Below are positions 26,530-64,000 of a stretch of DNA of 64,000 nt, piece after piece (the first letter of the stretch is position 1; each line of letters opens with the position of its first letter). The stretch lies in contig NZ_JACHCG010000003.1 of the NCBI RefSeq assembly GCF_014200595.1, positions 410,084 to 474,083 of the forward strand, read 5' to 3'. A model generated the notes under the pieces. The model saw nothing but the letters and a program-made list of their open reading frames with translations. It was not told the DNA's origin and searched no databases. The position numbers and the translations under genes were made by a program. The DNA is from Pedobacter cryoconitis. GTDB taxonomy: Bacteria > Bacteroidota > Bacteroidia > Sphingobacteriales > Sphingobacteriaceae.

Positions 26530-26533
26530 TTCC

Positions 26534-28000
26534 TTATTTTACCGATGTTAATTTTTGATTTACCTGTTCTAATAATTGTTGTACCGAAGCTTCTGATAAA
26601 TGCAGAATTGGTTTAGGATATACTCCCAATACGATAATCAACGCACAAATTATAACCAATACAATTTGTTCAGTTCCTTTAATGTCTGCAAATCCAAGTG
26701 TTAGTTCATTGGTTTTGCCTAACATGATGTTCTGGTACAGGCGGAACATATATACCGCACCAAAAATAACTGTCAATCCTGCAAATACGACAGCCCAGAT
26801 ATTATACTGGTAGATACCGATCAGCAATAGAAACTCTCCGATAAAGCCGTTAGTTCCCGGTAAAGCTACTGTTCCCAATACAATGATCAGAAATGCAATG
26901 GCCAGTTTTGGTGCTGATTTCGCAATACCACCCAATTCAGCAATCGTATTTGTTTTTACCCTGGAGAAAATAATGTCCAGTACAAAGAATAAACCGATCA
27001 CGTTTACACCGTGACTTAACATTTGAATCATTGCACCTTGCATACCTTGCGTATTTAAAGCAAAGATACCCGCAGAAATCAACCCTACGTGGGCAATTGA
27101 TGAATAAGCAATTAGTCTCTTCGCATCTTTCTGTCTGAAAGCAATTAAAGAAGCATATACAATTCCGATGATAGACAAAATAATTGCAGTATTACCCCAT
27201 TCCTCTACACCTGCCGGAACAATTGGCAATAACCATCTGATCACACCATAAATACCCATTTTCAACATGATACCCGAAAGTAACATCGTACCTGCTGCCG
27301 GTGCCTCAGTATAGGTATCCGGCTGCCACGTATGGAAAGGGAAAATTGGCATTTTAATCGCAAAAGCAATAAAGAACGACCAGAATATCCAGCCCTGCTG
27401 AACAGGATCCAAATGAAGCTGATAGAATGCTTGTATATCAAAGTTATGTGCCGGGTTTTGTAAGTACAGGTAAATGATACCTAATAACATGAATAAAGAA
27501 CCAGCAATAGTGTAAACGAAGAACTTCATGTTTACTTTAATACGGTCTTTACCTCCCCAGATTGCGCAAATAAAGTAAATTGGAATTAATGCAGCTTCCC
27601 ATCCGATATAGAATAAGAAAGCATCCATTGCTGTAAATACAACCAGTAAACCTGCCTGCATAAATAAGATTAGAGCAAAGAAACCAGCTGGTGATTTATA
27701 GTTATGCTGATAACTGGCCAGGATAATAATCGGTACCAGCACATTGGTCAGCAAAACTGTGATTAAGCTGATCCCGTCGATACCTGCATGGAAATGAATT
27801 CCAAGATCCTGAATCCAGGGTAAGTTGACGACAAATTGTGTACTTGCATCCGGGATAAACTGTCCGGCAACAACAGCTGTTAATGCCAATGAAGCAACAG
27901 CGAAAACCAGGGCTACATGTTTAGCGGCATTGCCGGTAAATGCTGTAACCAGTGCACCAACTACTGGCAGAAATATTAGAAGTATTAAAAGTTGTTCCAT
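26534..28000 (-). CDS. nuoM: NADH-quinone oxidoreductase subunit M
   Basis: A 488-residue antiporter-like membrane subunit. Conserved spots are IGWEAALIPIYF near residues 132-143, FPFHTWQPDTYTEAP near 221-235 and KRLIAYSSIAHVG near 294-306. Length matches NuoM (about 490-510). It lies 4 bp before nuoN and 21 bp after nuoL. Confidence 0.96.
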   Translation of the reverse strand: MEQLLILLIFLPVVGALVTAFTGNAAKHVALVFAVASLALTAVVAGQFIPDASTQFVVNLPWIQDLGIHFHAGIDGISLITVLLTNVLVPIIILASYQHNYKSPAGFFALILFMQAGLLVVFTAMDAFLFYIGWEAALIPIYFICAIWGGKDRIKVNMKFFVYTIAGSLFMLLGIIYLYLQNPAHNFDIQAFYQLHLDPVQQGWIFWSFFIAFAIKMPIFPFHTWQPDTYTEAPAAGTMLLSGIMLKMGIYGVIRWLLPIVPAGVEEWGNTAIILSIIGIVYASLIAFRQKDAKRLIAYSSIAHVGLISAGIFALNTQGMQGAMIQMLSHGVNVIGLFFVLDIIFSRVKTNTIAELGGIAKSAPKLAIAFLIIVLGTVALPGTNGFIGEFLLLIGIYQYNIWAVVFAGLTVIFGAVYMFRLYQNIMLGKTNELTLGFADIKGTEQIVLVIICALIIVLGVYPKPILHLSEASVQQLLEQVNQKLTSVK

Positions 28001-28021
28001 TATGTTTTCTTGGACGATCTT

Positions 28022-29914
28022 TTATAGAGATAAATAAGTATACAATAACAACGAGATGATTCCAACCACCATCATAAAAATATAGAACCCAACATTACCT
28101 GATTGCAGTAATCTGACTCCTTTACTTGCTTCCGATGTGCTCCATCCTAAACCATTGACAATACCGTCAATAATCTTTTTATCAAATACCTTATAAAAGA
28201 ATACTGAAATAGCATCCAGAGGTTTTCTGATTAAAGTATCATAAATCTCATCTACATAGAATTTATGATAAGATAGTTTAGCCAATGCAGAACGTTGTCC
28301 TTCGTCTGCCACAGGAACGTGGTTTTGTTTCACGTATTTACTATAAGCAAATGCGATAGAAATCAATACCCCTACAACTGAAACAGCCATTAAAATATAT
28401 TCAGTAGCATGGTCCGGTGCTTCTCCATGATGCTGGATAACCGGCGCAAGCCAATGTGATAACCAATGTGAACCTCCCAATGACTCCGGAACACCAATTG
28501 CACCACCGATAGCTGAAAGCACGGCAAGCACGATTAATGGAATGGTCATACTTTTTGGAGACTCATGGATTTTTTCTTCCGCATGGTGTGTTCCTCTGTA
28601 TTTACCAAAAAAGGTAAGGAACAACATTCTGAACATATAGAATGCAGTTAAAAAGGCAGTGAATACACCAATTGCCCACATTACTTTGTTATACTCGTAT
28701 ACATGAGAAAGGATCTCGTCTTTCGAGAAGAAACCTGAGAACGGAGGTAAACCTGAAATCGCAATCGTACCAATCAGCATGGTTAAGAAAGTAACCGGAA
28801 GTTTTTTACGTAAACCACCCATATGTCTCATATCCTGCTCATGGTGCATCGCATGGATCACCGACCCTGCACATAAGAACAATAATGCTTTAAAGAAAGC
28901 ATGTGTAATGACGTGGAAGAAAGAACCGTTATAAGCACCAACACCCAATCCCAAGAACATATATCCCAATTGAGATACAGTAGAATAAGCCAGTACTTTT
29001 TTAATATCTGTTTGTGTCAGGGCAATTAATGCACCCATAACAGCTGTTGCCAGACCAATAATTGCAATTAAGTGCTGAACTACAGGAGCCAGATCAAATA
29101 ATACATTTGAACGTGCAATCATATAGATACCAGCAGTTACCATTGTTGCCGCGTGAATCAGGGCAGAAACAGGCGTTGGACCAGCCATCGCATCCGGTAA
29201 CCAGGTAAACAATGGAATTTGTGCAGATTTACCGCAGGCACCCACAAATAATAATAAAGCAATTAATGCAATAGTAGAATTGCCGGAAACCATATTACCT
29301 GCCAGCGGGAATATTTTAGAGAACTCCACACTACCGAAAGTAGTGAAGATCAGGAATACCGCGATTAAGAAGCCTAAATCACCGATACGGTTCATGACGA
29401 AGGCTTTCTTTGCTGCTGTTGCATAACTGCTGTTGGTAAACCAGAAGCCGATCAGTAAGTAAGAGCATAAACCAACACCCTCCCATCCGATAAACATCAC
29501 GATATAGTTTGATCCAAGAACCAGCAACAACATGAAAAAGATAAACAAGTTTAAATAGCTGAAGAATTTACCGAATCCTTCATCATCATGCATATACCCG
29601 ATCGAGTATACATGAATCAGGAAACCGATTCCGGTGATGATCAGCAACATGATTGAACTCAATGGATCTACCAGGAAGGAAACCGGAATTTTTAATGAAC
29701 CGGCACTGATCCAGTCAAACAAGAAAATCTCGTGCGATTTCACAGCATCATTGCCTAAAGCTAAAAAGATGCCGATACTAATCACAAAAGATATGAATAT
29801 CACGCTACTCCCAATAAAACCGATCAGGTTTTTGGATAATGTATTTCTCCCAAGACCGTTGATGATAAAGCCTAAAAGAGGAATTAACGGAACCAGCCAA
29901 ACTAAATTTATCAT
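28022..29914 (-). CDS. nuoL: NADH-quinone oxidoreductase subunit L
   Basis: A 630-residue distal proton-pumping subunit. It has HVYSIGYM near residue 101, GWEGVGLCSYLLIGFW near 143-158, FTWLPDAMAGPTPVSALIHAATMV near 241-264 and the C-terminal lateral-helix region. Length agrees with the family (600-660). It lies 21 bp after nuoK. Confidence 0.96.
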   Translation of the reverse strand: MINLVWLVPLIPLLGFIINGLGRNTLSKNLIGFIGSSVIFISFVISIGIFLALGNDAVKSHEIFLFDWISAGSLKIPVSFLVDPLSSIMLLIITGIGFLIHVYSIGYMHDDEGFGKFFSYLNLFIFFMLLLVLGSNYIVMFIGWEGVGLCSYLLIGFWFTNSSYATAAKKAFVMNRIGDLGFLIAVFLIFTTFGSVEFSKIFPLAGNMVSGNSTIALIALLLFVGACGKSAQIPLFTWLPDAMAGPTPVSALIHAATMVTAGIYMIARSNVLFDLAPVVQHLIAIIGLATAVMGALIALTQTDIKKVLAYSTVSQLGYMFLGLGVGAYNGSFFHVITHAFFKALLFLCAGSVIHAMHHEQDMRHMGGLRKKLPVTFLTMLIGTIAISGLPPFSGFFSKDEILSHVYEYNKVMWAIGVFTAFLTAFYMFRMLFLTFFGKYRGTHHAEEKIHESPKSMTIPLIVLAVLSAIGGAIGVPESLGGSHWLSHWLAPVIQHHGEAPDHATEYILMAVSVVGVLISIAFAYSKYVKQNHVPVADEGQRSALAKLSYHKFYVDEIYDTLIRKPLDAISVFFYKVFDKKIIDGIVNGLGWSTSEASKGVRLLQSGNVGFYIFMMVVGIISLLLYTYLSL

Positions 29915-29935
29915 TTTATAATTTATTCTTAATAA

Positions 29936-30265
29936 TTACCACTTAAGGCGATTCAATACATTAATATCTGTAGACTGCGTATTTCTGTAAACCATTACAA
30001 TAATACTTAAGCCCACTGCTACTTCGGCCGCTGCCAGAGCCATGATGAAAAATACAAACACCTGCCCCGAAGGATCGTTGCTATGTACAGAGAAAGCAGT
30101 AAGTAATAAATTAACAGCATTCAGCATCAATTCTACCGACATAAAAATTACGATAGCATTTCTGCGGGTGAGTACGCCTATTACACCGATGGTGAAAATG
30201 ATAGCACTTAACCATATATAATGATTAAGCGGTACACCCTGTAAGGTTTGAGTAAGATTATTCAC
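29936..30265 (-). CDS. nuoK: NADH-quinone oxidoreductase subunit K
   Basis: A 109-residue membrane protein with three helices and the signature SVELMLNAVNLLL near residues 44-56, including the conserved Glu of the proton path, and AAAEVAVGLSI near 78-88 with the second Glu. Its start shares a base with the nuoJ stop, indicating coupled translation. Confidence 0.96.
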   Translation of the reverse strand: MNNLTQTLQGVPLNHYIWLSAIIFTIGVIGVLTRRNAIVIFMSVELMLNAVNLLLTAFSVHSNDPSGQVFVFFIMALAAAEVAVGLSIIVMVYRNTQSTDINVLNRLKW

Positions 30266-30762
30266 TATACTTTTTCTTTTTTAGTTAATAATACGGCACC
30301 CACCATAGCTGTAAGCAATAGAATTGAAGACAACTCGAAAGGCAGCATAAATGGACCGAACAATTCTTTACCCAGGTTCTTAACCAGACCTAAGTTTGGA
30401 TTCTGCAATACCAATGGATCAGATACAGCTGTAGCCTTTAAAGAGCCAATCAGTGTCACTACCAGACAACATCCGGCAACGATACCTACAACCTTTACTA
30501 AACCAGACTTCAGTGGCTCATTCTCTTTATTTAGATTGAGCAGCATCAGGACAAACAGGAAGAGTACCATAATTGCCCCCATGTACACAATAAAGTTTAC
30601 CACTGCCAGAAACTGCGCATTAAGCAAAATGTAATGGACTGTGAACGTAAAAAACGTTACGATCAGATAAAGTACACTATGCACCGGGTTCTTTGCGGAA
30701 ATCACCATCAGTGAAAAGAAAATACTTAAAAAAGCGACCAAATAGAATACTGATGTACCCAT
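30265..30762 (-). CDS. nuoJ: NADH-quinone oxidoreductase subunit J
   Basis: A 165-residue membrane subunit with five hydrophobic segments and VNFIVYMGAIMVLFLFVLML near residues 55-74, the typical NuoJ helix with its pi-bulge tyrosine region. It begins 80 bp after nuoI, the largest internal gap of the operon apart from nuoA-nuoB, and that gap holds a hairpin and a -7 box. Confidence 0.95.
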   Translation of the reverse strand: MGTSVFYLVAFLSIFFSLMVISAKNPVHSVLYLIVTFFTFTVHYILLNAQFLAVVNFIVYMGAIMVLFLFVLMLLNLNKENEPLKSGLVKVVGIVAGCCLVVTLIGSLKATAVSDPLVLQNPNLGLVKNLGKELFGPFMLPFELSSILLLTAMVGAVLLTKKEKV

Positions 30763-30781
30763 TTATTATTTTTGTTTTAAA

Positions 30782-30835
30782 GCCGTAAACGGCAAATGTA
30801 TAAACTGTTTATATCAAGAAGCGACTACACGCTTC
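30782..30835 (-). promoter_or_regulatory. hairpins and possible internal promoter between nuoI and nuoJ
   Basis: On the minus strand GAAGCG-6 nt-CGCTTC (30818-30835) follows the nuoI stop, then TACATTTG (30793-30800), an exact TAnnTTTG, then a GCCGT-2 nt-ACGGC stem (30782-30793). No good -33 box is visible. This could set a separate level for nuoJKLMN. Confidence 0.4.
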
Positions 30836-30842
30836 AATTTCA

Positions 30843-31343
30843 TTATTTCTTTAAAAGAGGCTCTTCTACCAGTTTGTCTTTACCGTAAATAAAGTCTTTA
30901 CGCAGATAATCTGAAGGAACAATCGGCCCGTCCAGGTAAATTGCTTCTTTCGGACAAGCTTCTTCACATAAACCACAAAAAATGCAGCGCAGCATATTGA
31001 TTTCATATACGGCAGCGTATTTCTCTTCTCTATACAAATCCTTCTCTTCTGGTTTACGTTCAGCAGCAATCATGGTGATCGCTTCCGCAGGGCATGACAA
31101 TGCACATAATCCACAAGCCGTACAACGTTCTTTACCGTCCTCATCTCTTTTCAGGGAATGCATCCCTCTCCAGTTGATAGACATTTCACGCTGAACTTCA
31201 GGATACCTGATTGTCGCTTCTTTTTTGAAGAAGTGACTGATCGTAATAGCCAGACCCTTTCCTAATGCAGGCAGATACATCCGCTCCGCAAAATTAAGTG
31301 GCTTTTGTATTAATATTTTCTTTTTACTGGTTAATGGTTCCAT
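30843..31343 (-). CDS. nuoI: NADH-quinone oxidoreductase subunit I (8Fe ferredoxin)
   Basis: A 166-residue subunit with two 4Fe-4S motifs, CTACGLCALSCP near residues 68-79 and CIFCGLCEEACP near 113-124, which bind clusters N6a and N6b. It is a peripheral-arm protein joining NuoCDB and NuoH. It lies 33 bp after the nuoH stop. Confidence 0.96.
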   Translation of the reverse strand: MEPLTSKKKILIQKPLNFAERMYLPALGKGLAITISHFFKKEATIRYPEVQREMSINWRGMHSLKRDEDGKERCTACGLCALSCPAEAITMIAAERKPEEKDLYREEKYAAVYEINMLRCIFCGLCEEACPKEAIYLDGPIVPSDYLRKDFIYGKDKLVEEPLLKK

Positions 31344-31376
31344 TAAACCTCCTTTTATATTCCGCTGAGCGGATAG

Positions 31377-32417
31377 TTAAAACTTTTCTACTATTGCAAT
31401 CACAATACCTGTGATAATTACGTTCGCTATGGCAATTGGGATCAGCACTTTCCAGCCCAGATGCATCAGCTGATCATAACGGAAACGGGGAATTGTCCAT
31501 CTCACCCACATAAAGAAAAATATGAATGCAAATATTTTAGCGAACAATACAGCCGTTCCGATTAATGGAGCAATTACAGGCCCAACCTGCGTCAGTACCC
31601 AGTCCATACCCGGATAGTTATATCCTCCGAAGTATAGCGTTGCCATGACTGCCGAAGACACAAACATATTGATATATTCCGCAAACAGGTAAAAACCTAA
31701 TTTCATCGAAGAATACTCCGTGTGGTATCCACCAATTAATTCAGTTTCACATTCCGGTAAATCGAATGGTGCTCTGTTAGTTTCAGCAAATGCGCAGATG
31801 ATAAATAACAGGAAGCCTAATGGCTGATAAAGCACATTCCAGCGCCATCCATGTTGCATATCCACGATTTCTTTTAAACTCATGGTGTTGGTCACCAATA
31901 ACAAAGCGATAATAGAAAGTCCCATTGCCACCTCATAACTGATATTTTGCGAAGCCGCACGAATAGCACTTAAAAGAGAGTATTTATTGTTAGAAGCCCA
32001 TCCACCGATCATTACACCGTATACACTCAGAGAAACTACGCCGAAAATGTATAAAACACCAACGTTAATATCGGTAACCTGCAATGGAATAACTCTTCCG
32101 GCAGCAGTTGTAATCGGGCTTCCCCATGGAATAACAGCAGTTCCGATACAGGCGGTCAGCATTGCTAAACCCGGCCCAACCATAAACAGCCACTTGTTCG
32201 CATGCGTAGGAATAATTTCTTCCTTCATGAACATTTTCAGTCCGTCTGCCAATGGCTGCAAGATCCCGAAAGGGCCTGCACGGTCTGGTCCAAGTCTATC
32301 CTGCAAGAAAGCAGCAACTTTTCTTTCCGCATATGTAGAATACATAGCGATAACTAAACTTATACCAAAAATGATAGCGACCAGTATAAATTTTTCTATG
32401 ACGAATGAGATATCCAT
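31377..32417 (-). CDS. nuoH: NADH-quinone oxidoreductase subunit H
   Basis: A 346-residue membrane subunit with about eight helices. ERKVAAFLQDRLGPDRAG (residues ~31-48) and AETNRAPFDLPECETELIGG (near 211-230) are its defining loops, shaping the quinone entry site. The start codon shares one base with the nuoG stop. Confidence 0.97.
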   Translation of the reverse strand: MDISFVIEKFILVAIIFGISLVIAMYSTYAERKVAAFLQDRLGPDRAGPFGILQPLADGLKMFMKEEIIPTHANKWLFMVGPGLAMLTACIGTAVIPWGSPITTAAGRVIPLQVTDINVGVLYIFGVVSLSVYGVMIGGWASNNKYSLLSAIRAASQNISYEVAMGLSIIALLLVTNTMSLKEIVDMQHGWRWNVLYQPLGFLLFIICAFAETNRAPFDLPECETELIGGYHTEYSSMKLGFYLFAEYINMFVSSAVMATLYFGGYNYPGMDWVLTQVGPVIAPLIGTAVLFAKIFAFIFFFMWVRWTIPRFRYDQLMHLGWKVLIPIAIANVIITGIVIAIVEKF

Positions 32418-33421
32418 TAGAATTTAGCGGTTTTTTCCAGTTCAACTTTATTAGCTTCCTGCAAACGAAGATCTTCCTGAATTACAGGTAATGGGATCAT
32501 CGTTTCGTAATGATTAGAAGAGATTACCGAAGTATCACTGATATGCGTAGGATGCTCAATAGTCCAGTCTGCTGTTTTCTTTTTATCGAAACGGCAAGTG
32601 TTACAAATGAACTCCTCCACTTCACCATAAATGTCTTTACGGGCAGTTACCCTTAAAACATCTTCTCCTTTATACCATAAAGTCACTTTACCACTACAAG
32701 TAGGGCAATCTCTATGTGCATCCACAGGTTTTGTAAACCAAACCCTGTTTTTGAAACGGAAAGTTTTATCAGTTAAAGCACCAACCGGACATACATCAAT
32801 CACGTTTCCGGAGAAATCGTTATCAACAGCAGTCTGGATATAAGTAGAAATTTCTGAGTGATCACCTCTGTTTAAGATACCATGAACACGTTTATTAGTG
32901 ATCTGATCTGCTGTAAACACACAACGGTAGCATAAAATGCACCTGTTCATATGTAACTGGATCTTATCTCCTATATCGATACGCTCAAATGTACGGCGCT
33001 CAAATTCATAACGTGTTTTTTGTAAACCGTGCTCATAACCCAGATTCTGCAAATCGCATTCTCCGGCCTGGTCACATACCGGACAATCCAGCGGGTGATT
33101 AATCAACAGCATCTCTACCACACCACTTCTGGCTTCAATTACTTCAGGAGAAGTAATATTCTGCACTTCCATTCCGTCCATTACTGTTGTACGGCACGAA
33201 GCAACCAGCTTAGGCATTGGTCTCGGGTCTTTTTCAGATCCCTTGCTTACTTTTACGATACAAGTACGGCACTTACCTCCGCTACCTTCCAATTTGGAAT
33301 AGTAGCACATTGCAGGAGGCACAATGTCTCCGCCAATTTGCCTTGCAGCATTCAGGATCGTTGTACCGGGCTCTACTTCGACGGTTATCCCGTCTATGGT
33401 TACCTTAACTTTTTCACTCAT
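32417..33421 (-). CDS. nuoG: short NADH-quinone oxidoreductase subunit G (2Fe-2S/4Fe-4S protein)
   Basis: The start at 33421 (MSEKVKVTIDG) gives 334 residues; the longer frame adds 13 unlikely residues. The cysteine sets are present in order: 2Fe-2S ligands around CYYS..CRTC, the His/Cys set HPLDCPVCDQAGEC near residue 96, CILCYRC near 142 with CPVGA near 189, and a CPTC..CNTC pair near 217-252. The protein then stops, so the large molybdopterin-oxidoreductase-like domain of the usual 700-900-residue NuoG is absent. I believe short forms are usual in this group, but have no comparison here. Confidence 0.9.
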   Translation of the reverse strand: MSEKVKVTIDGITVEVEPGTTILNAARQIGGDIVPPAMCYYSKLEGSGGKCRTCIVKVSKGSEKDPRPMPKLVASCRTTVMDGMEVQNITSPEVIEARSGVVEMLLINHPLDCPVCDQAGECDLQNLGYEHGLQKTRYEFERRTFERIDIGDKIQLHMNRCILCYRCVFTADQITNKRVHGILNRGDHSEISTYIQTAVDNDFSGNVIDVCPVGALTDKTFRFKNRVWFTKPVDAHRDCPTCSGKVTLWYKGEDVLRVTARKDIYGEVEEFICNTCRFDKKKTADWTIEHPTHISDTSVISSNHYETMIPLPVIQEDLRLQEANKVELEKTAKF

Positions 33422-33482
33422 TGTTAAATGATATTCTTTTATCATTCCTGCGTTTCTCAATCAAAAAACCCAGGTCTGACAG

Positions 33483-34850
33483 TTAATTTTCCTGTTTTAC
33501 TTCTGCTTTAGGAATCGGCACTGCATAATTAGCGATACCATAATTTCCCTGAAGACTTTTTATAGGCTCTTTCACATGCCATTCAAACTCATCTCTGAAA
33601 TGTCTGATTGCACTTGCGACAGGCCATGCAGCAGCATCTCCTAAAGGACAAATTGTATTTCCTTCGATCTTTTTAGACACATCAACCAATAAGTCAATAT
33701 CACTCATCTTACCATGTCCATGTTCCAGTCTGTGTAATACTTTTTCCATCCATCCAGTACCTTCACGGCATGGAGAACACTGACCACAGCTTTCATGGTG
33801 ATAAAAGCGGGAAAAGTTCCAGGTATTTCTTACAATACACTGATCTTCATCAAAAGCGATAAAACCACCTGAACCTAACATAGTCCCGGTAGCAAATCCA
33901 CCTTCAGAAAGAGATTCGTAACTCATTAAACGTGGTTCACCGTTTGCTAATTTAAGCGTCAGGTTAGCAGGCAATACCGGAACAGAAGAACCTCCGGCTA
34001 CAGTAGCCTTCAATCTTTTGCCATTGGCAATACCACCACAATATTCATCAGAATAAATGAACTCTTCTACCGGAAGGCCCAATTCTATTTCGTAAACACC
34101 TGGTCTGACCAGATTACCCGAAGCAGAAATCAGTTTCGTTCCTGTACTGCGTCCAATACCGATTTTCATGTATTCATCACCGCCGTCATTAATAATAGGC
34201 ACGACTGCGGCAATAGATTCTACGTTGTTCACTACAGTCGGGCAGCCATATAAACCAGCGATAGCCGGGAATGGTGGTTTAATCCTTGGATTACCCCTTT
34301 TACCTTCAAGTGATTCTAATAAAGCCGTTTCCTCACCGCAGATATAAGCTCCGCCACCCGGCTGAACATAAACCTCCAGATCATAACCCGACCCTAAAAT
34401 GTTTTTTCCTAAAAAGCCGGCAGCTTTTGCTTCTGCGATTGCTCTTTCCAGAATCCTGATTTGCGGCATCATCTCTCCACGTACGTAGATATAAGATGTG
34501 TTAGCGCCCAATGCATAACTTGACACAATCATTCCTTCAATTAAAGCATGAGGAATGTAAGTCATCAGATAACGGTCTTTGAAAGTACCCGGCTCTGATT
34601 CGTCAGCATTACATACCAGGTAGCGGGCAACACCTTCTGGTTTTGCCAGAAAGCTCCACTTCATTCCTGTAGGGAAACCTGCACCGCCACGTCCGCGTAA
34701 GCCAGACTTTTTAACCTCTTCCACCACTTCATCAGGGGTCAGGGTTTTCAAAGCTTTCTCCACAGCACGGTACCCGCCTTTTTGGCGGTAAACATCAAGT
34801 GTATTGATGCCTGGTACGTTTATATGTTCTAATAAGAGTTTACGGGCCAT
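33483..34850 (-). CDS. nuoF: NADH-quinone oxidoreductase subunit F
   Basis: A 455-residue flavoprotein. GRGGAGFPTGMKW near residues 53-65 binds FMN and NADH, AYICGEETAL near 178-187 follows, and CGQCSPCREG near 357-366 plus a later CPLG cysteine bind cluster N3. It oxidises NADH at the tip of the peripheral arm. It shares one base with the nuoE stop. Confidence 0.97.
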   Translation of the reverse strand: MARKLLLEHINVPGINTLDVYRQKGGYRAVEKALKTLTPDEVVEEVKKSGLRGRGGAGFPTGMKWSFLAKPEGVARYLVCNADESEPGTFKDRYLMTYIPHALIEGMIVSSYALGANTSYIYVRGEMMPQIRILERAIAEAKAAGFLGKNILGSGYDLEVYVQPGGGAYICGEETALLESLEGKRGNPRIKPPFPAIAGLYGCPTVVNNVESIAAVVPIINDGGDEYMKIGIGRSTGTKLISASGNLVRPGVYEIELGLPVEEFIYSDEYCGGIANGKRLKATVAGGSSVPVLPANLTLKLANGEPRLMSYESLSEGGFATGTMLGSGGFIAFDEDQCIVRNTWNFSRFYHHESCGQCSPCREGTGWMEKVLHRLEHGHGKMSDIDLLVDVSKKIEGNTICPLGDAAAWPVASAIRHFRDEFEWHVKEPIKSLQGNYGIANYAVPIPKAEVKQEN

Positions 34851-49568: not shown

Positions 49569-51116
49569 ATGATACGCAGATTTATATTTATCCTCTTTAT
49601 CGGGCTTCAGCTGGGAAGGGTTTCCGCACAGACTAAAACACCTGATGAGCTGTATGGCCAGTTGTTTATTGATGTGCAAATGCAGAATGTGCTGAAAGAC
49701 GGTAAAACTTTTGTGGATTGTATCCCAAAAAGAGATCCGGCAAAAATACTGGAAGACTATCTGAAATTAAAAGCTGCTAAAACTAATTTTAGCACCAGGG
49801 CTTTTGTAAATGATAACTTTATTTTTCCGGATACCAATACTACAGTTGTGACGACAGCAAATCAGCCCGTAGCCGAACATATTAACCAGCTTTGGGAAGC
49901 ACTGCGCCGTAAACCCGCAGAAAAAATTGCCAATAGTTCGCTGCTTGACCTCCCTAACCCTTATATCGTTCCCGGCGGACGCTTCAGAGAAGTTTATTAT
50001 TGGGATAGTTATTTTACGATGCTGGGTCTGCAAGTATCCGGAGAAAATGAGACTATTGAAAATATGGTCAAAAACTTCGCTTACCTGATTGAGCAAAATG
50101 GCCACATTCCAAACGGGAACAGAAACTATTACCTCAGCAGGTCGCAACCTCCATTTTTCTCACTGATGATTGGACTGCTTGCCCAAATCAAAGGAAATGA
50201 AGCCTATTCCACTTACTTACCAGCACTGGAAAAAGAATATGCCTATTGGATGGATCAGTCTGCACCAACTAAACACGTGGTAGTTATGCCCGATGGAAGT
50301 AAGCTGAACCGCTATTACGACCAGTTAAATACACCAAGACAAGAATCCTATAAAGAGGACGTACTGATCGGCCAGCAAACCGAAGCAAAAAATCCGGAAG
50401 TATACCGTGACATCAGGTCAGCAGCAGAGAGTGGCTGGGATTTCAGCAGCAGGTGGTTAGCAGATGGCATGCAATTAAAGACTATTCAAACTACACAACT
50501 TGTTCCTGTAGATCTGAATTGCTTATTATATAACCTGGAACTCACCCTACAGAAATGTTATGCACTTCAACACGATGTAGTCAAAGAAAAGCAGTATCAA
50601 ACCCTGGCCTTAAAAAGGAAAGCCAGTATCCAGAAATATTTCTGGTCACCAAAGTATTCCTGGTTCACAGATTACAGTCTTAAAACTAAAAACCAATCCC
50701 CTGTGTTGAGTCTGGCAGGGATGTTTCCATTATCCTTCAACCTGGCCGGCCAAAAACAAGCTAAACTGGTTAAGAATACCTTACAACAAAAATTCCTGAA
50801 AGCAGGGGGATTAGTTTCTACACCATTAAATACACATCAACAATGGGATTCGCCTAACGGATGGGCCCCTTTACAATGGATGGCTATCACCGGACTGGGT
50901 AATTATGGCTTTCATGAGCTGGAGAAACAGATTGCTGTCCGCTGGATTAATTTAAATACCAGCGTGTATAAGCGTACAGGAAAACTAATGGAGAAATACA
51001 ATGTAGTAAACCTGCAACTGAAAGCCGGAGGTGGAGAATATGCTTCTCAGGATGGATTTGGATGGACTAATGGGGTCTTAATTTCCCTGATGAAAAAATA
51101 CGGCTACACGAAATAA
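49569..51116 (+). CDS. treA: periplasmic alpha,alpha-trehalase (GH37)
   Basis: A 515-residue enzyme with a signal peptide (first ~20 residues, RVSAQ). The GH37 signatures are PGGRFREVYYWDSYF near residues 137-151 and QWDSPNGWAPLQW near 423-435. The catalytic acid lies in ESGWDFSSRW near 287. It splits trehalose to two glucose molecules in the periplasm. It may share a transport or catabolic role with the glycoside-hydrolase-like gene at 53273. Confidence 0.95.
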   Translation: MIRRFIFILFIGLQLGRVSAQTKTPDELYGQLFIDVQMQNVLKDGKTFVDCIPKRDPAKILEDYLKLKAAKTNFSTRAFVNDNFIFPDTNTTVVTTANQPVAEHINQLWEALRRKPAEKIANSSLLDLPNPYIVPGGRFREVYYWDSYFTMLGLQVSGENETIENMVKNFAYLIEQNGHIPNGNRNYYLSRSQPPFFSLMIGLLAQIKGNEAYSTYLPALEKEYAYWMDQSAPTKHVVVMPDGSKLNRYYDQLNTPRQESYKEDVLIGQQTEAKNPEVYRDIRSAAESGWDFSSRWLADGMQLKTIQTTQLVPVDLNCLLYNLELTLQKCYALQHDVVKEKQYQTLALKRKASIQKYFWSPKYSWFTDYSLKTKNQSPVLSLAGMFPLSFNLAGQKQAKLVKNTLQQKFLKAGGLVSTPLNTHQQWDSPNGWAPLQWMAITGLGNYGFHELEKQIAVRWINLNTSVYKRTGKLMEKYNVVNLQLKAGGGEYASQDGFGWTNGVLISLMKKYGYTK

Positions 51117-57437: not shown

Positions 57438-58549
57438 TGTACATCCATCAACAAAACAACTGGCCCGACTTTTACTGGAACACAGAAAATCTAACTAAGA
57501 AACTCGGCGAAGTAAGATACCGTCAGGGCAAAATATTGGGTCAGATGAGTGCACTTGGCTTTGACCTCAGAGAAGAAACAATCCTCCAAACACTTACACT
57601 GGATGTTACTAAATCCAGTGAAATTGAGGGAGTAATGCTGGATAATGAACAAGTCCGTTCTTCTATCGCTAAACGCCTGGGCATAGAGATCGCTGGTGCG
57701 ATACCACCAGAGCGCCATGTAGATGGAGTAGTAGAAATGATGCTGGACGCTATTCAGCATTATCAGCAGCCTTTATCTATGGAAAGATTAAACAATTGGC
57801 ACGGAGCTTTATTTCCCACCGGACGCAGTGGACTTTATAAAATAAAAGTAGCCGAATTGCGCGACGGCCCTATGCAGGTTGTATCTGGTGCAATGGGTAA
57901 AGAAAAAATACATTTTGAAGCACCTTCTGCCGAGAGACTTTCTGCCGAAATGACCAAGTTTATAAACTGGTTTAATAACGATCAGCATCTTGATCCGGTT
58001 ATCAAAGCTGCGCTCGCACATATCTGGTTTGTCACCATACATCCCTTCGATGATGGAAATGGCCGTATAACAAGAGCAATCACAGATATGTTCCTGGCCA
58101 GAGCAGACCAAACAGAGAACCGTTTCTACAGTATGTCTGCTCAAATACAAAAAGACCGGAATCAGTATTACGAAATCCTTGAAAAAACTCAAAAAGGATC
58201 ATTGGATATCACTGCCTGGATAAATTGGTTTTTAGATTGCTTATACCGCGCAATGGATAGTACAGATCTTATACTGGATGCGATCAGGACCAGAACCCTT
58301 TTTTGGGAAGTAAACCGGAATACTGTATTTAATGTCCGTCAGCAAAAAATGGTTGATCAGCTGCTCGATGGATTCTTTGGAAATTTAACGGTTTCAAAAT
58401 GGTCAAAAATCACTAAAGCATCTAAGGATACCGCGCTACGGGATATTCAGGATTTAGTTAAAAAAAATATACTCCTCCAGCAAGGTGCTGGCAGGAGTAC
58501 AAATTATAAGCTCAATTTCATTGGAAAACAGATTAATCAATTAGTTTAA
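57437..58549 (+). CDS. Fic-family AMP-transferase with N-terminal inhibitory helix
   Basis: A 370-residue protein. A DUF4172-like N-terminal part contains the inhibitory motif SSEIEG near residues 60-65, as in class II Fic enzymes. The Fic core motif HPFDDGNGR is near 202-210, with the catalytic His. A C-terminal winged-helix-like region (DTALRDIQDLVKKNILLQ near 335-352) could bind DNA. It would transfer AMP from ATP to a protein target. The repeats upstream suggest autoregulation. Its 3' end overlaps the convergent MACPF gene by 17 bp. Confidence 0.92.
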   Translation: MYIHQQNNWPDFYWNTENLTKKLGEVRYRQGKILGQMSALGFDLREETILQTLTLDVTKSSEIEGVMLDNEQVRSSIAKRLGIEIAGAIPPERHVDGVVEMMLDAIQHYQQPLSMERLNNWHGALFPTGRSGLYKIKVAELRDGPMQVVSGAMGKEKIHFEAPSAERLSAEMTKFINWFNNDQHLDPVIKAALAHIWFVTIHPFDDGNGRITRAITDMFLARADQTENRFYSMSAQIQKDRNQYYEILEKTQKGSLDITAWINWFLDCLYRAMDSTDLILDAIRTRTLFWEVNRNTVFNVRQQKMVDQLLDGFFGNLTVSKWSKITKASKDTALRDIQDLVKKNILLQQGAGRSTNYKLNFIGKQINQLV

Positions 58550-59564
58550 CCTGCTGATCAGCTATATATTTACTGATGTATGTTTTCACCTCTGCTTTTT
58601 TAACAGGATCAGTAATCAGTTGATCTAAGGAAACTAACCCATTTTGTCTGATTCCAATGAATGCTGCATTTTCCTTTGTGTTACTCCGTAACCATTCTGT
58701 AATATTAATTTTAGTAGTTTTAAATCGGGGATCTGCTTTAAGCGTCGAGGTATCACCCCCCACAGCATCATAAACTATTTTTTGTGAAGAAACTGCTGCA
58801 AGATCTCTTGCATTAGGCTTATCCAGCTGTCCTGAAAACAAACCAAATACATTTTTTAGTGCAACAGTAAAATTTGAAGATACGACAGCAGTTGTTCTTT
58901 CCCCATCTTTGTCCTTAGCTACCGCCTGGTAGATAATATTAAGTTTCTGCCCAACTTCAATACCTGTAAGCACATGAGTACCATATTTCCCAACCAGATC
59001 AGCACTGCTCATAGCCAGTATATCCTGCGTAAACTCTGGAGTTAAATAACCTTCATTATAACGCATGATTGCGTAGTATATCCGGGAGATCAATGAATAA
59101 TTTCCATAAATATATTTCCGCGAAAATGAATCTTTATCAGGAAATGAGGCTGTAATCGTTCCTTTGAACAGGTAAGAGTTTTTTCCCTCTCCGCCAGGAG
59201 ATCGGAATTGTCCAACAAAATGTTCTGCATTTGAACCAAAAACAACAAATGGTTCCATCGAACTGCCATAACCTATATTAAAATTATTGTCATTGTCTTT
59301 CGCAAGTCCTAATACATCGATCGCCTGTCCGCGTACAGCAGATATATGTTCATATTTGCCAGTGATATCATATCCAAATCCAAGCATGCTATAAACGCCA
59401 TTCCCCTTAGGATCTGGTTGATTAGTCACATTTTGTATCTTTGAAACAGTTACAATAGTATCTGGCACATAAACGGGATCAGGATATATTATTGGATTTT
59501 CAGTTGATTTTTTACAAGAAGTAAATGCTGCACATATGGCAAGAAGAAGAAGAATATTTTTCAC
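58533..59564 (-). CDS. MACPF/perforin-domain lipoprotein
   Basis: A 343-residue protein with a lipoprotein signal (CAAFTSC near residues 11-17). The MACPF signature is YGTHVLTGIEVG near residues 193-204 (Y-G-T-H), followed by strand-rich sequence. The Bacteroidales secreted antimicrobial proteins (BSAPs) are lipoproteins of this domain type that kill related strains. This one is shorter. Pore formation is inferred. It is the last gene of a minus-strand set with the PPTase, C-domain and beta-barrel genes. Confidence 0.88.
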   Translation of the reverse strand: MKNILLLLAICAAFTSCKKSTENPIIYPDPVYVPDTIVTVSKIQNVTNQPDPKGNGVYSMLGFGYDITGKYEHISAVRGQAIDVLGLAKDNDNNFNIGYGSSMEPFVVFGSNAEHFVGQFRSPGGEGKNSYLFKGTITASFPDKDSFSRKYIYGNYSLISRIYYAIMRYNEGYLTPEFTQDILAMSSADLVGKYGTHVLTGIEVGQKLNIIYQAVAKDKDGERTTAVVSSNFTVALKNVFGLFSGQLDKPNARDLAAVSSQKIVYDAVGGDTSTLKADPRFKTTKINITEWLRSNTKENAAFIGIRQNGLVSLDQLITDPVKKAEVKTYISKYIADQQVKLID

Positions 59565-59613
59565 AGAAATAATTTCAATAAGATTTTAATAAAAAATTTA
59601 TCAAATATACTAA

Positions 59614-60291
59614 TTAGAACTTCTTTATTACTTCTAAGTTTTTAACATTATCACTCAATGCAATATGGGACATATATTCATCTTCAATGTTTATTCTTCT
59701 CAAATACCATTTATTCTCCTGGAAAGTGCCAATACTTAATTGACTGTCTATAACTACACTTTTCAGGGGAATATTCAGCCCTCTTCCATCACCTTTTAAA
59801 ATACTTTCTTTTAAAGTCCATAACGTATAAAAAGAATGTAATGGATTACTGGAATCCTGGATCATGACCTGCTGGATCTTATTCATAGAGACTTCCAGAT
59901 AGTCTTCTACATCCAGAGGGACTATCTTTTCGATATCAATTCCAACTTTAATTCCCCTGGCAATCGCACAAACTACCACTGCGCCCGAATGAGAAATATT
60001 AAAATCTATATCACCATCCATATATGGCCTTTGAAATTCAGTAAACTTCAAGTCCTCCAGACAATTGCTTTCATAACCAAAATCTCTTAGCGCCGCTAAT
60101 AAAAGTGCCTTCCCTAAAAATTGCAGTTTCCGGTCCTGAGTTAGTCTGTAACGCATTATTTTATCGTATAAAACTAACGGAAGCTCAGGGATATAATCCT
60201 GATAGGCCTCTTCACTCACCTGATCACTCACTTTGGCATAAAATACTTTTACATCATAGTAATCGGGAGCATCGGTTAAAATCGTCCTCAT
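59614..60291 (-). CDS. 4'-phosphopantetheinyl transferase (Sfp type)
   Basis: A 225-residue protein with the Sfp-type motifs NISHSGAVVVCAIA near residues 98-111, VGIDIEKI near 116-123 and FYTLWTLKESILKGDGRG near 156-173 (W-x3-KE), which bind Mg and CoA. It converts an apo carrier protein to its pantetheinyl form. The carrier protein is not in the window. It lies 90 bp after the C-domain gene and 49 bp before the MACPF gene, so it should belong to their pathway. Confidence 0.92.
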   Translation of the reverse strand: MRTILTDAPDYYDVKVFYAKVSDQVSEEAYQDYIPELPLVLYDKIMRYRLTQDRKLQFLGKALLLAALRDFGYESNCLEDLKFTEFQRPYMDGDIDFNISHSGAVVVCAIARGIKVGIDIEKIVPLDVEDYLEVSMNKIQQVMIQDSSNPLHSFYTLWTLKESILKGDGRGLNIPLKSVVIDSQLSIGTFQENKWYLRRINIEDEYMSHIALSDNVKNLEVIKKF

Positions 60292-60381
60292 ACAATTGTT
60301 AATTTAAAATGTGAATATCATTTGGCCTGAAATCACAGCCATATTATCCTGCGGAAAAGCGGGATGTGTTTAGCATACTAC

Positions 60382-62022
60382 CTATTGAATATATGCCGAT
60401 AAGGGGATATCCCTGTTTTTGAGAATTACGTGTATAACCTTAAAAAAGACGTCAAACATATTTTCAATAGCAGCAGGGCTATAGTTGAGTTTATTATATT
60501 GCGTATTGATGGAGATGCAGTTTATATTTTCATTAATGGTGAATTTAAGATCTCCGAGTCCGGACCCGATATCTGAATGATATGGAGTCATATTTTCTAT
60601 TTCCACATCAGGCACACTCAGAAAATTCAGCATAATGGGAGATAAATCATTGACTGGTAAATCCAGATCTTTCATAATCATTTGCTGTGCATAAAACCTA
60701 TGGTCAGAAGCCACCATAATATTATCGGTGACGTTTTTCACAAACTCATTGAATGTTAAACCATTATCTTCTTCTATACAAATTATTATTTCTGAAGTTA
60801 ACCAGCCAACAATCGATTCAAAATCTTTAAGAACCCGATTACTATAAGCAAGACAATATCTCACACTGACTATATTTTCTGTTTTATAAAATACAATAGA
60901 AAGGATAGCGGTCAGTGTCATAAATAATGTCGATTCCGACTCCATTGAAAGCTTTCTTAATTCTATAAGCAAATACGGACTGATATAAGTCTTATAACTA
61001 GCTCCCGGCGCAGGGTACAAAGAGACAACAGTGCCTACCGCTTCCGCATATTTCTCAATATTTTCTTTATTAAGATATTTCCTGATCTCTTCTTCAAGCG
61101 TTTTTTTATAAGATATCTTACCAAAAGTAAGTGCCCTGGGATCTCCAATCTTCTTCCAGTGCTGTTGATTGAGTGCAATACTTCTGGAGATAGCCTTTCT
61201 GTAAAACTCGCTGGATATTTTGCCCTTTTCACTTTTCAGGAATCGGTTTGCCCAGCGTGAATAATCTAAATACTGCATTTTTTGCTCTGGTAGCGGGTTT
61301 GGCTCTCCTTTCTTAAACGCAGTATAAAGCCGCATGATTTCATGCTTTAAGATCTTAACTGACCCGTCATCAGAAATTGCATGGTGCATAGAAATATACA
61401 AGCCCTGCAAGTCATTCGAATATACGACAATTGTAAATGCAATGAATGGTGCTTTTTGAAGATCAAACAAAACATTTGTTGCTTTCTCACTGAATCTCGC
61501 ATATTTAATGGCTTCGTCTTTTTCCTTTGAAAGATCAAGATAACCAATTTCAAAGCCTGGCGGAAGATCATCATATATCTTTTGTCTCACCTGCCCATCA
61601 ATCAAGAGCAAATAAGTACGCAAACTATCATGCCGTTTTACTACCGTAAAGATAGCTTTACGCATGGCCTCAATATCGAGTGCCTCAATTTGCAGCTGAA
61701 AATTCTGGTTATGTAAAAAACTGCCGGCAATTAAATAACGGAAAAATGATTTCTTTTGCTGGTGCGTAGTTTCATAATCCTTATCTTCTCTCGATTTCTC
61801 ATAGTAGTCTGTGTCTTTTATACTAAACCATTTTTCGGAGTTAACGGCTGAATGTTTGCGTTTAGCCTCTTTAATGAAGGCAATAAGGTGTTCTTTATTT
61901 TTTCTGACCTCTGCTAAAATACCTGAAAAATCAAAACCCGGAGGCATTTCAAGTTTTAGCTGGTCACTGACAACATCTATCCTGATATTGTTGCATTTTA
62001 ACTTATAGATGAGCGTTTCCAT
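60382..62022 (-). CDS. stand-alone NRPS-type condensation-domain protein with TubC-like docking domain
   Basis: A 546-residue protein. The first ~55 residues (IYKLKCNNIRIDVVSDQLKL near 5-24, then LAEVRKNKEHLIAFIKE) resemble the TubC N-terminal docking domain. A condensation domain follows, with the catalytic HHAISDDG near residues 213-220; the seventh position of HHxxxDG is D instead of G. No adenylation, carrier or thioesterase domain is joined to it. The docking domain implies a partner megasynthase. It lies 25 bp after the receptor gene. Confidence 0.85.
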   Translation of the reverse strand: METLIYKLKCNNIRIDVVSDQLKLEMPPGFDFSGILAEVRKNKEHLIAFIKEAKRKHSAVNSEKWFSIKDTDYYEKSREDKDYETTHQQKKSFFRYLIAGSFLHNQNFQLQIEALDIEAMRKAIFTVVKRHDSLRTYLLLIDGQVRQKIYDDLPPGFEIGYLDLSKEKDEAIKYARFSEKATNVLFDLQKAPFIAFTIVVYSNDLQGLYISMHHAISDDGSVKILKHEIMRLYTAFKKGEPNPLPEQKMQYLDYSRWANRFLKSEKGKISSEFYRKAISRSIALNQQHWKKIGDPRALTFGKISYKKTLEEEIRKYLNKENIEKYAEAVGTVVSLYPAPGASYKTYISPYLLIELRKLSMESESTLFMTLTAILSIVFYKTENIVSVRYCLAYSNRVLKDFESIVGWLTSEIIICIEEDNGLTFNEFVKNVTDNIMVASDHRFYAQQMIMKDLDLPVNDLSPIMLNFLSVPDVEIENMTPYHSDIGSGLGDLKFTINENINCISINTQYNKLNYSPAAIENMFDVFFKVIHVILKNRDIPLSAYIQ

Positions 62023-62047
62023 AGTTTTCTTTTTGCTTAAGCGCAGG

Positions 62048-64000
62048 CTACAATTTTGGACTGGCCCTTCTGTTCAGGTCCTCAGCACCTGTCCCTCTTG
62101 ATTTCGAAGATTTTACTGTTTGTTTTCCAAAGCTATAGCTAAAGGTTAAAGTTGCCTTCCGGCTTACCCACCGGTTATAAATGGCAAGATCCAGGTTTTG
62201 ATATTTAAGAGATCCTGTGTATTGAGAATTCAGGAAAATGTCACTTACATTCAATTTCAGTTTGGCTCTCTTTTCTGCAAATGTTTTTTGGATTCCCGCA
62301 TCAAAATTATACCGGGGTTTAATAGCCCTTTCTATGCCATAGACATAAGGTGAAACATAAGCGAAGTTCAATTCAGCACTCCAGGTATCTGAAATTTTAA
62401 TCGCATTATAAATATTAATATTGTAGGCCAGTTTACCCGCATAAAAATTTCCGCCCAGTAAGCCCATATCCGTAAATTTATTATAATACAGATTAAACTG
62501 GTTCTGCATCGACCACCACGGCCTGATGTTTAACGGGAAGGAAAGGTTAGCAGAGTAATTCTTAAAATTACCCAGGTTACCTTGTATGGCTTTAATTACC
62601 TTGGTAGAATCATTTTGTTCGGTTAGCTGAACGATATAATCTTTAGTATTTGAATACCCAAGAGATAGCGTTGCCAGGCCTTTATAAGTATAACTGATTT
62701 CAAAGTTATCTGTAAACTGCGGCTTTAGAAACGGGTTCCCCTGATCTAAAGTATAAGGATCCTGGAAAAACACGAAAGGATTGAGCTGCTGATAGTTCGG
62801 GCGGTCAATCCTCCTGCTGTAGGAGTACCTGATCGAATTGTCAGCATCAATGGTCTGACTCACAAATACCGAAGGAAATAAAGACAGGTAATTGCTGTCT
62901 ACTACCTTGTTATCTGTGATAGAATTTCCATTTGAATGTGTCAATTCTGCACGCATACCTGCCTGAACGCTCCATTTATCCCATTTTTTATTAAAATTTA
63001 CATAAGCTGAATTGACGTTTTCTTTATAGATGAACTTATTGGATTGTAAAGGATCATTCTGCCAGTTCCCACTCAGCAGCCTTTCAAAACCATAATCATT
63101 TATCGTCTTTACATAATCACTTTTAAGTCCAGTTTCAAAAACAAGTCCTTCTTGTAGTGGCAGCGTCAAATCAACACGGCCAGTCAAAATATCTATTTTG
63201 GATTCCGTACTGTTCCGCTGTGTCTGATTATCAGTCAGCAGGTTATCAGCATCAAAAAAGTTAGTATTGAAATCCTGGTTCCTTTTATTGTTGTAACCAG
63301 AATAAGTTGCGTCAAAGCGTATACCAGCCCCTGTTTTATTAAAATCTCTTTTCAGGTTAAAGTTTGTCGTGATATACCTGCGTGGCGCATAAGTGGATGA
63401 ATTTTGTTGTAAGGAACTGGAAACACCAGATTCCCCGCCACTGATATGTGTATTGCTCACCCCGTTAATATCATCTTTAACTACCCCCCCATCCACTAAT
63501 ATGCCGATACTGGTCTTCTCTGAAGGAGAAAAGTCAACACCAAATTTCCCTGTTACTCCTTTTCCAACTTTAGGCTGGGTCAGGTACTGATCAAATACAC
63601 TGGTTTTATCGTTAAAATTCACATTCCTCTTGAGCGTGGTTTCATTATAATCTGCACTTCTGTACTGATTGACATTTCCATACACATTCCACTTTTCTGT
63701 CCTGTGGTTCAGGCTCAGGTTCGCAAATTCACGCCAGAGGTCTTTCGGGCCATAAGGAACGATTCCATTCCCCACACTTGTGGAAAAACTACCGTTGGTG
63801 CCGAATAATTTACTTTTCTTTAATTTGATGTCGATGATACCCGCGTTGCCGGAAGCATCGTATTTGGCCGAAGGATTAGCAATAATATCAATAGTAGCTA
63901 CCTGATCACTGGTCATACTTTTTAACAAATTGGCCAGGTCAGTACTTGATAGATAGTTCTTTCTTCCATCGATCATAACCAGCACCCCGCTTTTATTTTT
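62048..64000 (-). CDS. TonB-dependent-receptor-like outer-membrane beta-barrel protein (5' end outside window)
   Basis: The frame is open to the window end, with five codons before the first possible start, so the gene continues beyond 64000. The visible ~650 residues begin in the plug-like region (VMIDGRKNYLSSTDLANLLKSM, then DIIANPSAKYDASGNAGII), and continue as the strand-rich Outer-membrane beta-barrel family 3 domain with the terminal strand FSYSFGKQ. It would import or bind an unknown ligand at the outer membrane, energised by TonB. The C-domain gene follows 25 bp downstream. Confidence 0.88.
   Translation of the reverse strand, partial: KNKSGVLVMIDGRKNYLSSTDLANLLKSMTSDQVATIDIIANPSAKYDASGNAGIIDIKLKKSKLFGTNGSFSTSVGNGIVPYGPKDLWREFANLSLNHRTEKWNVYGNVNQYRSADYNETTLKRNVNFNDKTSVFDQYLTQPKVGKGVTGKFGVDFSPSEKTSIGILVDGGVVKDDINGVSNTHISGGESGVSSSLQQNSSTYAPRRYITTNFNLKRDFNKTGAGIRFDATYSGYNNKRNQDFNTNFFDADNLLTDNQTQRNSTESKIDILTGRVDLTLPLQEGLVFETGLKSDYVKTINDYGFERLLSGNWQNDPLQSNKFIYKENVNSAYVNFNKKWDKWSVQAGMRAELTHSNGNSITDNKVVDSNYLSLFPSVFVSQTIDADNSIRYSYSRRIDRPNYQQLNPFVFFQDPYTLDQGNPFLKPQFTDNFEISYTYKGLATLSLGYSNTKDYIVQLTEQNDSTKVIKAIQGNLGNFKNYSANLSFPLNIRPWWSMQNQFNLYYNKFTDMGLLGGNFYAGKLAYNINIYNAIKISDTWSAELNFAYVSPYVYGIERAIKPRYNFDAGIQKTFAEKRAKLKLNVSDIFLNSQYTGSLKYQNLDLAIYNRWVSRKATLTFSYSFGKQTVKSSKSRGTGAEDLNRRASPKL

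Follow-up and report, generated by a model that had tools for sequence, protein, structure and literature searches.

Four minus-strand genes of Pedobacter cryoconitis at the distal end of a probable N-acyl-D-asparagine prodrug cluster

The N-acyl-D-asparagine prodrug clusters, which include those for zwittermicin, colibactin, paenilamicin, edeine, amicoumacin and xenocoumacin, are built around an acyl-Asn starter with an epimerase and an S12 peptidase of the ClbP type. According to the available text of PMC9889268, residues S95, K98 and Y186 of ClbP are catalytic, N331 binds D-Asn and is strictly conserved among the prodrug peptidases, W466 in the membrane part contacts the acyl group and is essential (its change abolished activity), and the replacement of E92, an orienting residue, by Gln raised the cleavage of a D-Asp substrate. 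The subject of this report is a group of four genes at the end of a 64,000-nucleotide stretch of Pedobacter cryoconitis DNA (the window; C3:410084-474083 of the 6.35-Mb genome G000), encoding an outer-membrane beta-barrel protein, a lone condensation-domain protein (lone C), a 4′-phosphopantetheinyl transferase (PPTase) and a lipoprotein with a MACPF domain. It is likely, judging from gene content, that they lie at the distal end of one cluster of about 82 kb, transcribed leftwards and making an N-acyl-D-asparagine-capped prodrug, with the MACPF gene most likely a separate neighbour.

Two other groups of described proteins are relevant. Transfer to a free amine has been reported for VibH, SchH and the terminal condensation domain of glidonin (available part of PMC10587159), and the MACPF lipoproteins of Bacteroidales known as BSAPs are bactericidal (available part of PMC12853789). 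The original prediction for this stretch, made from its sequence, had put forward as a speculation that the four genes were a toxin or surface system, with the MACPF partner tied to a small peptide or lipid product.

The cluster past the window and its prodrug hallmarks

The region C3:466000-585999 was taken and its open reading frames (ORFs) were listed. It holds a gene cluster of the nonribosomal peptide synthetase (NRPS)/polyketide synthase (PKS) type on the minus strand, C3:468616-550410, which measures about 82 kb with the MACPF gene and about 81 kb without it. Every listed gene from MACPF (C3:468616) to a 92-aa ORF (ending at C3:550410) is on that strand. Adjacent genes were measured in 27 pairs, from MACPF to past the antiterminator gene, 22 of them with a positive gap; within the same-strand run the gaps went from -119 to 130 bp, with the single exception of one of 443 bp. 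By domain search the assembly line consists of eight synthetases with 17 carrier domains and three KS-AT modules, so that the lone C and the PPTase have partners there, and the four window genes prove to be, on this gene order, the 3′ end of a long NRPS/PKS gene set. Carrier proteins had been expected beyond 64 kb or elsewhere, and the extension did reveal both A and T domains. A thioesterase (TE) domain, also looked for, was found by Pfam at E<=0.001 in none of the eight synthetases, and the cluster contains a stand-alone thioesterase gene.

The starter module is organized as FAAL-T-C-A-T-E, and the pocket of its A domain reads DLTKIGEVG, which we take to be a code for Asn. The same pocket or DLTKIGEIG was found in all six starters that could be read, this genome's among them. 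The other A-domain pockets, compared by eye with known codes, presumably correspond to Thr (one), Ser (three) and a Cys-like residue (one), several being undecided. The peptidase-exporter fusion protein displays the Pfam domains Beta-lactamase (residues 37-349), ABC_membrane (500-737) and ABC_tran (826-958), and was over the cut-off for cyclic peptide exporters (361.4 bits; cut-off 286.2). In a search of solved structures it matched full-length ClbP over query residues 43-475 (E 1.2e-48). The numbering of ClbP was transferred by hand from this full-length alignment to eight peptidases, this genome's (L009:11884-14952) and those of seven relatives, and the equivalents of S95, K98, Y186, N331 and W466 were present in all eight. 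The eight fusion proteins also kept the Walker A motif, and five of them an exact LSGGQ/E. It can be said that the gene set probably builds a peptide-polyketide that is first made in a harmless, capped form.

Related loci were sought with the fusion protein, which matched nine of the 145 genus genomes, this one included, at E<=1e-80. Seven loci in six other genomes (G061, G210, G305 twice, G306, G212 and G300) showed 50-55% identity over nearly the full length, and the matches of G211 and G270 covered only the exporter end. The seven loci were read as stretches of 60-100 kb, with genes assigned by best match to the ORFs of this cluster; that of G306 stops at a contig end and the first one of G305 (G305a) is cut on its 5′ side by the stretch. 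The second protein of family PF00144 and the racemase were found in all seven, AsnB and the A-T-C protein each in six (one of the A-T-C proteins being shorter), the starter in five, the NusG-like gene in four and the cupin in three. Within the stretches read, no ORF had the MACPF protein or the lone C as its best match, and a PPTase of this type was found in a single locus, that of G061 (30%). A MACPF gene occurs elsewhere in four of the six genomes, for instance about 250 kb away in G300.

Pfam scans were run on the last synthetases at five related loci (all seven except G061 and G306), and covered only the C-terminal part in the second locus of G305 (G305b) and in one G300 protein. A thioesterase was detected in G305a, and the other four (G210, G212, G305b and G300) showed none; the G305a domain rules out that the related lines lack one altogether. 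Genome G305 carries two different prodrug-type clusters (C1:4120053-4179574 and 6055917-6108578; L109-L118), the first with the thioesterase ending its last synthetase and the second with none in the C-terminal part scanned. In the last synthetase of G210 (L106:4799-9757), the A domain that precedes the final carrier domain is interrupted by a pyridoxal-dependent decarboxylase domain.

In the direction of transcription, the cluster starts with a UpxY antiterminator gene (140.7 bits; cut-off 100), the 92-aa ORF, which has no family, the stand-alone thioesterase and the starter, followed by an aromatic amino acid hydroxylase-like protein, an unassigned ORF, SbnA (382.5 bits; cut-off 349.95) and an SbnB-like protein. 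Four synthetases come next, with the architectures C-A-T-KS-AT-T-C-A-T-E-C-A-T, C-A-T, C-C-A-T-C-A-T and KS-AT-KR-T-C-A-T-C, and then an asparagine synthase-like protein, the A-T-C protein, a synthetase in which incomplete C and A domains precede T-C-A-T, the last synthetase (KS-AT-T-C-A-T-C-A-T) and a paralogue of the lone C. The run continues with a GT20 protein (trehalose-phosphate synthase-like), a DUF6734 protein, the ClbP-like peptidase-ABC fusion, the second PF00144 protein (with a sub-threshold TPR match), an Asp/Glu-type racemase and the cupin, and finishes in the window with barrel, lone C, PPTase and MACPF.

Some features of the region were recorded on their own account. The synthetase at C3:494491-499026 (L015:10491-15026), in which an intact T follows the partial C and partial A, looks as if the middle of a module had been lost. 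The GT20 gene (C3:481926-483446) is about 20 kb from a trehalase gene in the window (49569-51116). Beyond the 5′ end of the cluster there is a lantibiotic dehydratase-like gene (C3:554452-557613; L018:14452-16000) not far from ORFs resembling response regulators and a gene resembling a histidine kinase, perhaps a second small biosynthetic locus. Within the window, ordinary complex I-type (Nuo) genes occupy positions 25156-34850 of the minus strand.

The four genes in the window

The ORF listing and the gap measurement agreed with the description of four close minus-strand genes, separated by 25, 90 and 49 bp, and the identities proposed for them were borne out by Pfam, with OMP_b-brl_3, Condensation, ACPS and MACPF all over cut-off. 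The barrel protein (62048..64000, minus strand, running off the window) has an N-terminal carboxypeptidase-regulatory-like domain (OMP_b-brl_3 382-383 bits, CarboxypepD_reg 41.8 bits). Its complete frame of 820 aa (C3:472131-474593, window 62048-64510) reaches just outside the window. The PPTase (59614..60291, minus strand, 225 aa, ACPS 35 bits with a cut-off of 25) is of Sfp-like size. Of the eight relatives that match it best among the family genomes (L054-L061), five (L055, L056, L057, L060 and L061) adjoin NRPS-like genes or are one gene away from them. Another PPTase-family domain of this genome, at C2:194160-194384, is within a 1438-aa open frame.

The lone C (60382..62022, minus strand, 546 aa, Condensation 161 bits) is a C domain without A or T, preceded by an N-terminal TubC-like docking segment. 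Taken alone, this segment was sub-threshold in the TubC model (14.2 bits, and 21.8 in the paralogue; cut-off 26), and residues 1-260 of the protein matched the start of a cluster NRPS (E 1.3e-18) whose own TubC domain, at 50.7 bits, is above the cut-off. The active-site motif is HHAISDD. Residues H213, H214 and D218 are invariant in the three rows compared (both paralogues and the 71% identical relative P0002), and the final Gly of HHxxxDG is Asp in this protein and Glu in the paralogue. The paralogue (C3:483478-485130) is 49% identical, lies about 11 kb beyond the window copy and directly follows the last synthetase, which terminates after a carrier domain and whose end shares one base with the frame of the paralogue. 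With the lone C as the query, 42 matches were obtained in the genome, many of them in very large same-strand frames up to C3:547393 and others on contigs C1 and C2. A protein-database search, which scored just the 7,999 candidates with the most words in common with the query, gave four proteins at E<=1e-10 including the query and the paralogue, P0002 being the one relative at 71%. At E<=1e-20, this genome was the only match among 201 family genomes, and at E<=1e-25 two others of the 145 genus genomes matched, at only 25-31% and inside frames of 1554-6772 aa; the same four-gene order, which it had been suggested to look for in relatives, appeared with this query in no other genome of either set. 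A search of genome contigs with the single protein, by exact 8-residue patterns and so insensitive, returned no relative, and one with an alignment returned a single match, at 20%, in a contig of Candidatus Aminicenantes. The 24 matches in the PDB were C domains of NRPS, none of them named VibH. By analogy with the described transfer reactions, the two docking-plus-C paralogues may take up the finished chain in trans and pass it to a free amine or to a hydroxyl.

The MACPF lipoprotein (58533..59564, minus strand, 343 aa, 25.9 bits with a cut-off of 21.5) is the one MACPF match in the genome. It has a YGTH motif, a lipobox cysteine, Cys17, invariant in 24 rows, and a GTG start that its relative P0007 appears to use as well (its sequence begins with V). 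The 3′ end of its gene shares 17 bp with a convergent Fic gene. Its best NCBIfam match was BSAP5a, at 48.6 bits against a 500-bit cut-off, and its sequence gave no meaningful match to solved structures. Relatives were present in 41 of the 201 family genomes (E<=1e-3) and in 32 of the 145 genus genomes (E<=1e-40), this genome being counted in both.

The surroundings of 40 MACPF genes were examined, namely the best match in all 31 other genus genomes and in nine of 31 non-genus genomes, in stretches mostly of 17 kb (four shorter at contig ends) that reached about 8 kb to each side. Seven proteins of the cluster served as queries at E<=1e-8. Six of them (PPTase, lone C, barrel, C-A-T, PKS and FAAL) matched at no locus, and the seventh, the fusion protein, matched two loci at 24-28%, as expected for ABC transporters. 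The proposed tie between the MACPF partner and a peptide or lipid product finds no support in these counts, no NRPS, PPTase or lone C gene being found within about 8 kb in the 40 loci and no MACPF gene in the stretches read at the seven related loci. In genome G152 a PPTase relative (C2:250016) is about 9 kb from a weak match to MACPF residues 4-132 (E 6.8e-4, C2:259504); it was rejected as a counter-example, since the match lies outside the MACPF core and the stretch gave no match to a synthetase of the cluster. In 18 of the 40 loci, all in the genus (18 of 31), the MACPF gene is beside cmk and arfB, a conserved-looking place.

In a tree of 64 rows, rooted only at the midpoint and with some long branches and one row (L171) that is a 59-residue fragment, the window protein grouped only with P0006 and P0007 (100/100), and a separate clade of 43 rows held 29 of the 31 genus rows and all 18 cmk-arfB rows. 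An origin from the ordinary MACPF gene of the genus, moved beside the cluster, is not favoured by this topology, in which the window protein stands apart from the 43-row clade. Apart from the protein itself, no relative in the database other than P0006 and P0007 (58-59%) exceeded 41% identity, and a search of 399 genomes for close relatives (E<=1e-75) returned this genome alone. As no PPTase relative with 46-95% identity occurred among the best 120 of 138 found, the MACPF lineage seemingly does not travel with this PPTase. The GC content at third codon positions (GC3) of the MACPF gene was 0.250, the lowest of 31 genes, the other 30 (cluster and flanks) ranging from 0.312 to 0.449. The gap that precedes it (59565..59613, minus strand) is 10% GC and contains TATATTTG, including TANNTTTG, which we take to be a Bacteroidetes -7-like box and which was present in this gap alone among the 22 positive ones. 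It seems reasonable to interpret the MACPF protein as, most likely, a surface lipoprotein expressed on its own, encoded next to the cluster and without a part in its mechanism.

Weighing of the explanations

In the proposed mechanism, the window PPTase would activate the carrier domains of the cluster, and the exporter-peptidase would move the inert precursor to the periplasm and remove the acyl-D-Asn cap. The two docking-plus-C proteins would most likely join the carrier-bound chain in trans to a free amine or hydroxyl acceptor, a step that would also release the chain, and the outer-membrane barrel may serve passage, uptake or self-protection. Several observations weigh against parts of this scheme. 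Regarding release, all five related lines scanned at their last synthetases are without the lone C and four of them are also without a thioesterase domain, so another release route must exist. Regarding the peptidase, ClbP came slightly behind another S12 protein in the search of solved structures: Protein flp, which does not belong to the prodrug group, was the top match of this part (E 6.6e-51, query 35-358). Moreover, the position of the pocket residue S188 is Thr in all eight peptidases and that of E92 is Gln in five, this genome's included, and Glu in three; specificity for D-Asn may then be relaxed. These replacements are in themselves a natural variation in the D-Asn pocket. The SbnB-like protein, the partner of SbnA in the 2,3-diaminopropionate pair, is at 293.8 bits under its cut-off of 326.9, and the genome has six PF01648 matches, the window PPTase one among them, which rules out that it is the only member of its family there. 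Regarding the separateness of the MACPF gene, its strand and 49-bp gap allow co-transcription with the PPTase gene, and its lineage is as rare as that of the lone C (two relatives at 58-59% vs one at 71%). The TANNTTTG motif has an expectation of 0.11 by composition (gap plus 20 bases), no matching -33 box was found in the PPTase-MACPF gap, and the 5′ gaps of the cluster itself also lack the motif; on these last two grounds the promoter-like box counts as weak.

The alternatives concern mainly the MACPF gene. It is possible, if rather unlikely, that this protein works for the cluster as a pore former at the cell surface, produced along with the antibiotic, for instance to open the outer membrane of competitors to a bulky product or to help the producer's own export or protection. 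Its place on the same strand 49 bp after the PPTase gene, the bactericidal activity of the BSAP lipoproteins (PMC12853789, available part) and a lineage that is not the usual one of the genus and has few close relatives, like the lone C, so that the two could travel together, agree with such a role. It is opposed by the lack of MACPF genes in the stretches read at the seven related loci and of NRPS genes at the 40 MACPF loci, by the want of an intermediate-identity PPTase, among the best 120 of 138, to go with the 58-59% MACPF relatives, and by the outlying composition of the gene and its own, weak, promoter-like box. Its most elaborate version, a two-part weapon in which a bulky peptide-polyketide, exported and uncapped by the cluster, enters rivals through holes made in their outer membrane by the MACPF protein, seems distinctly improbable; if true, it would pair a nonribosomal product with a complement-like pore. 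That the four genes by themselves form a small system dedicated to a toxin or surface function, as their short gaps and single strand could suggest, is very improbable, with the same-strand run continuing into the synthetases, a paralogue of the lone C beside the last synthetase and no conserved unit in the lone C search of the 201 family and 145 genus genomes. The original prediction had itself named an upstream NRPS cluster, with the MACPF gene unlinked, as the outcome that would speak against such a system, and this is largely what was found: the C domain and the PPTase are accounted for by the upstream NRPS/PKS cluster, and the relatives of the MACPF gene lie elsewhere.

Two other explanations touch the cluster itself. 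The window lone C could be a decaying duplicate of the C3:483478-485130 protein, with no catalytic role, which we regard as unlikely: the 49% paralogue in the same cluster and the replacement of the last Gly of HHxxxDG by Asp (Glu in the paralogue) are in its favour, and it is countered by the full-length open frame and by both His and the Asp being kept in both paralogues and in P0002. The cluster could also be of a siderophore or other class, the ClbP-like fusion being then an ordinary peptidase-transporter. SbnA and SbnB also serve siderophores (staphyloferrin B), an outer-membrane receptor is present and the peptidase part has its best PDB match in Protein flp; this is nonetheless improbable in view of the Asn-type, epimerase-bearing starter loaded by FAAL and of the retention of N331 and W466, with the roles described in the available text of PMC9889268. 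The distal end of a cluster for an N-acyl-D-asparagine-capped prodrug thus stays, for us, the likely explanation of the locus.

Comparison with described systems

The literature searched, with subscription journals mostly outside its coverage, gave no report of such prodrug clusters in Bacteroidota or Pedobacter. The phyla named in a survey of ClbP are Firmicutes, Proteobacteria and Actinobacteria, the words Bacteroidetes and Bacteroidota being absent from its main text (PMC9889268); the main text of a study of Pedobacter clusters deals with lipopeptide NRPS clusters and is without prodrug or zwittermicin (PMC12181424); and in the available part of PMC9248904 zwittermicin appears only in a reference title. 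The prodrug NRPS/PKS cluster is, apparently, known in kind and little noticed in Bacteroidota. The present results point to a family of this prodrug type in Sphingobacteriaceae, with eight loci carrying the full peptidase-exporter fusion in seven of the 145 genus genomes. The conservation of cap and peptidase offers direct access to the products, and the lone docking-plus-C proteins offer a trans-acting step open to testing. The case of the MACPF gene is a caution that closeness by itself makes no system.

Compared with the BSAP pore-forming lipoproteins of Bacteroidales, the MACPF protein is alike in its lipobox cysteine and MACPF domain and differs in being far under the family cut-off and in having no C-terminal receptor-binding domain, with 10 residues after the Pfam match. 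The UpxY-family antiterminator gene predicted at the 5′ end of the cluster is a likeness to the UpxY-family NusG paralogues. The lone C would resemble the free-standing amide synthases VibH and SchH as a condensation domain acting alone in trans on a carrier-bound chain, as proposed here, and differs from them in carrying a TubC-like docking segment. Concerning the prodrug clusters, this one is alike in the acyl-Asn starter with its epimerase and in the ClbP-type S12 peptidase with the D-Asn pocket residue N331 and with W466, and the fusion of the peptidase to an ABC half-transporter is shared with ZmaM, PamJ and EdeA. It differs from them in belonging to a member of the Bacteroidota, in the loading of the acyl chain by a FAAL domain within the starter protein, in the S188 to Thr and E92 to Gln replacements, and in having two free-standing docking-plus-C proteins and synthetases without a thioesterase domain.

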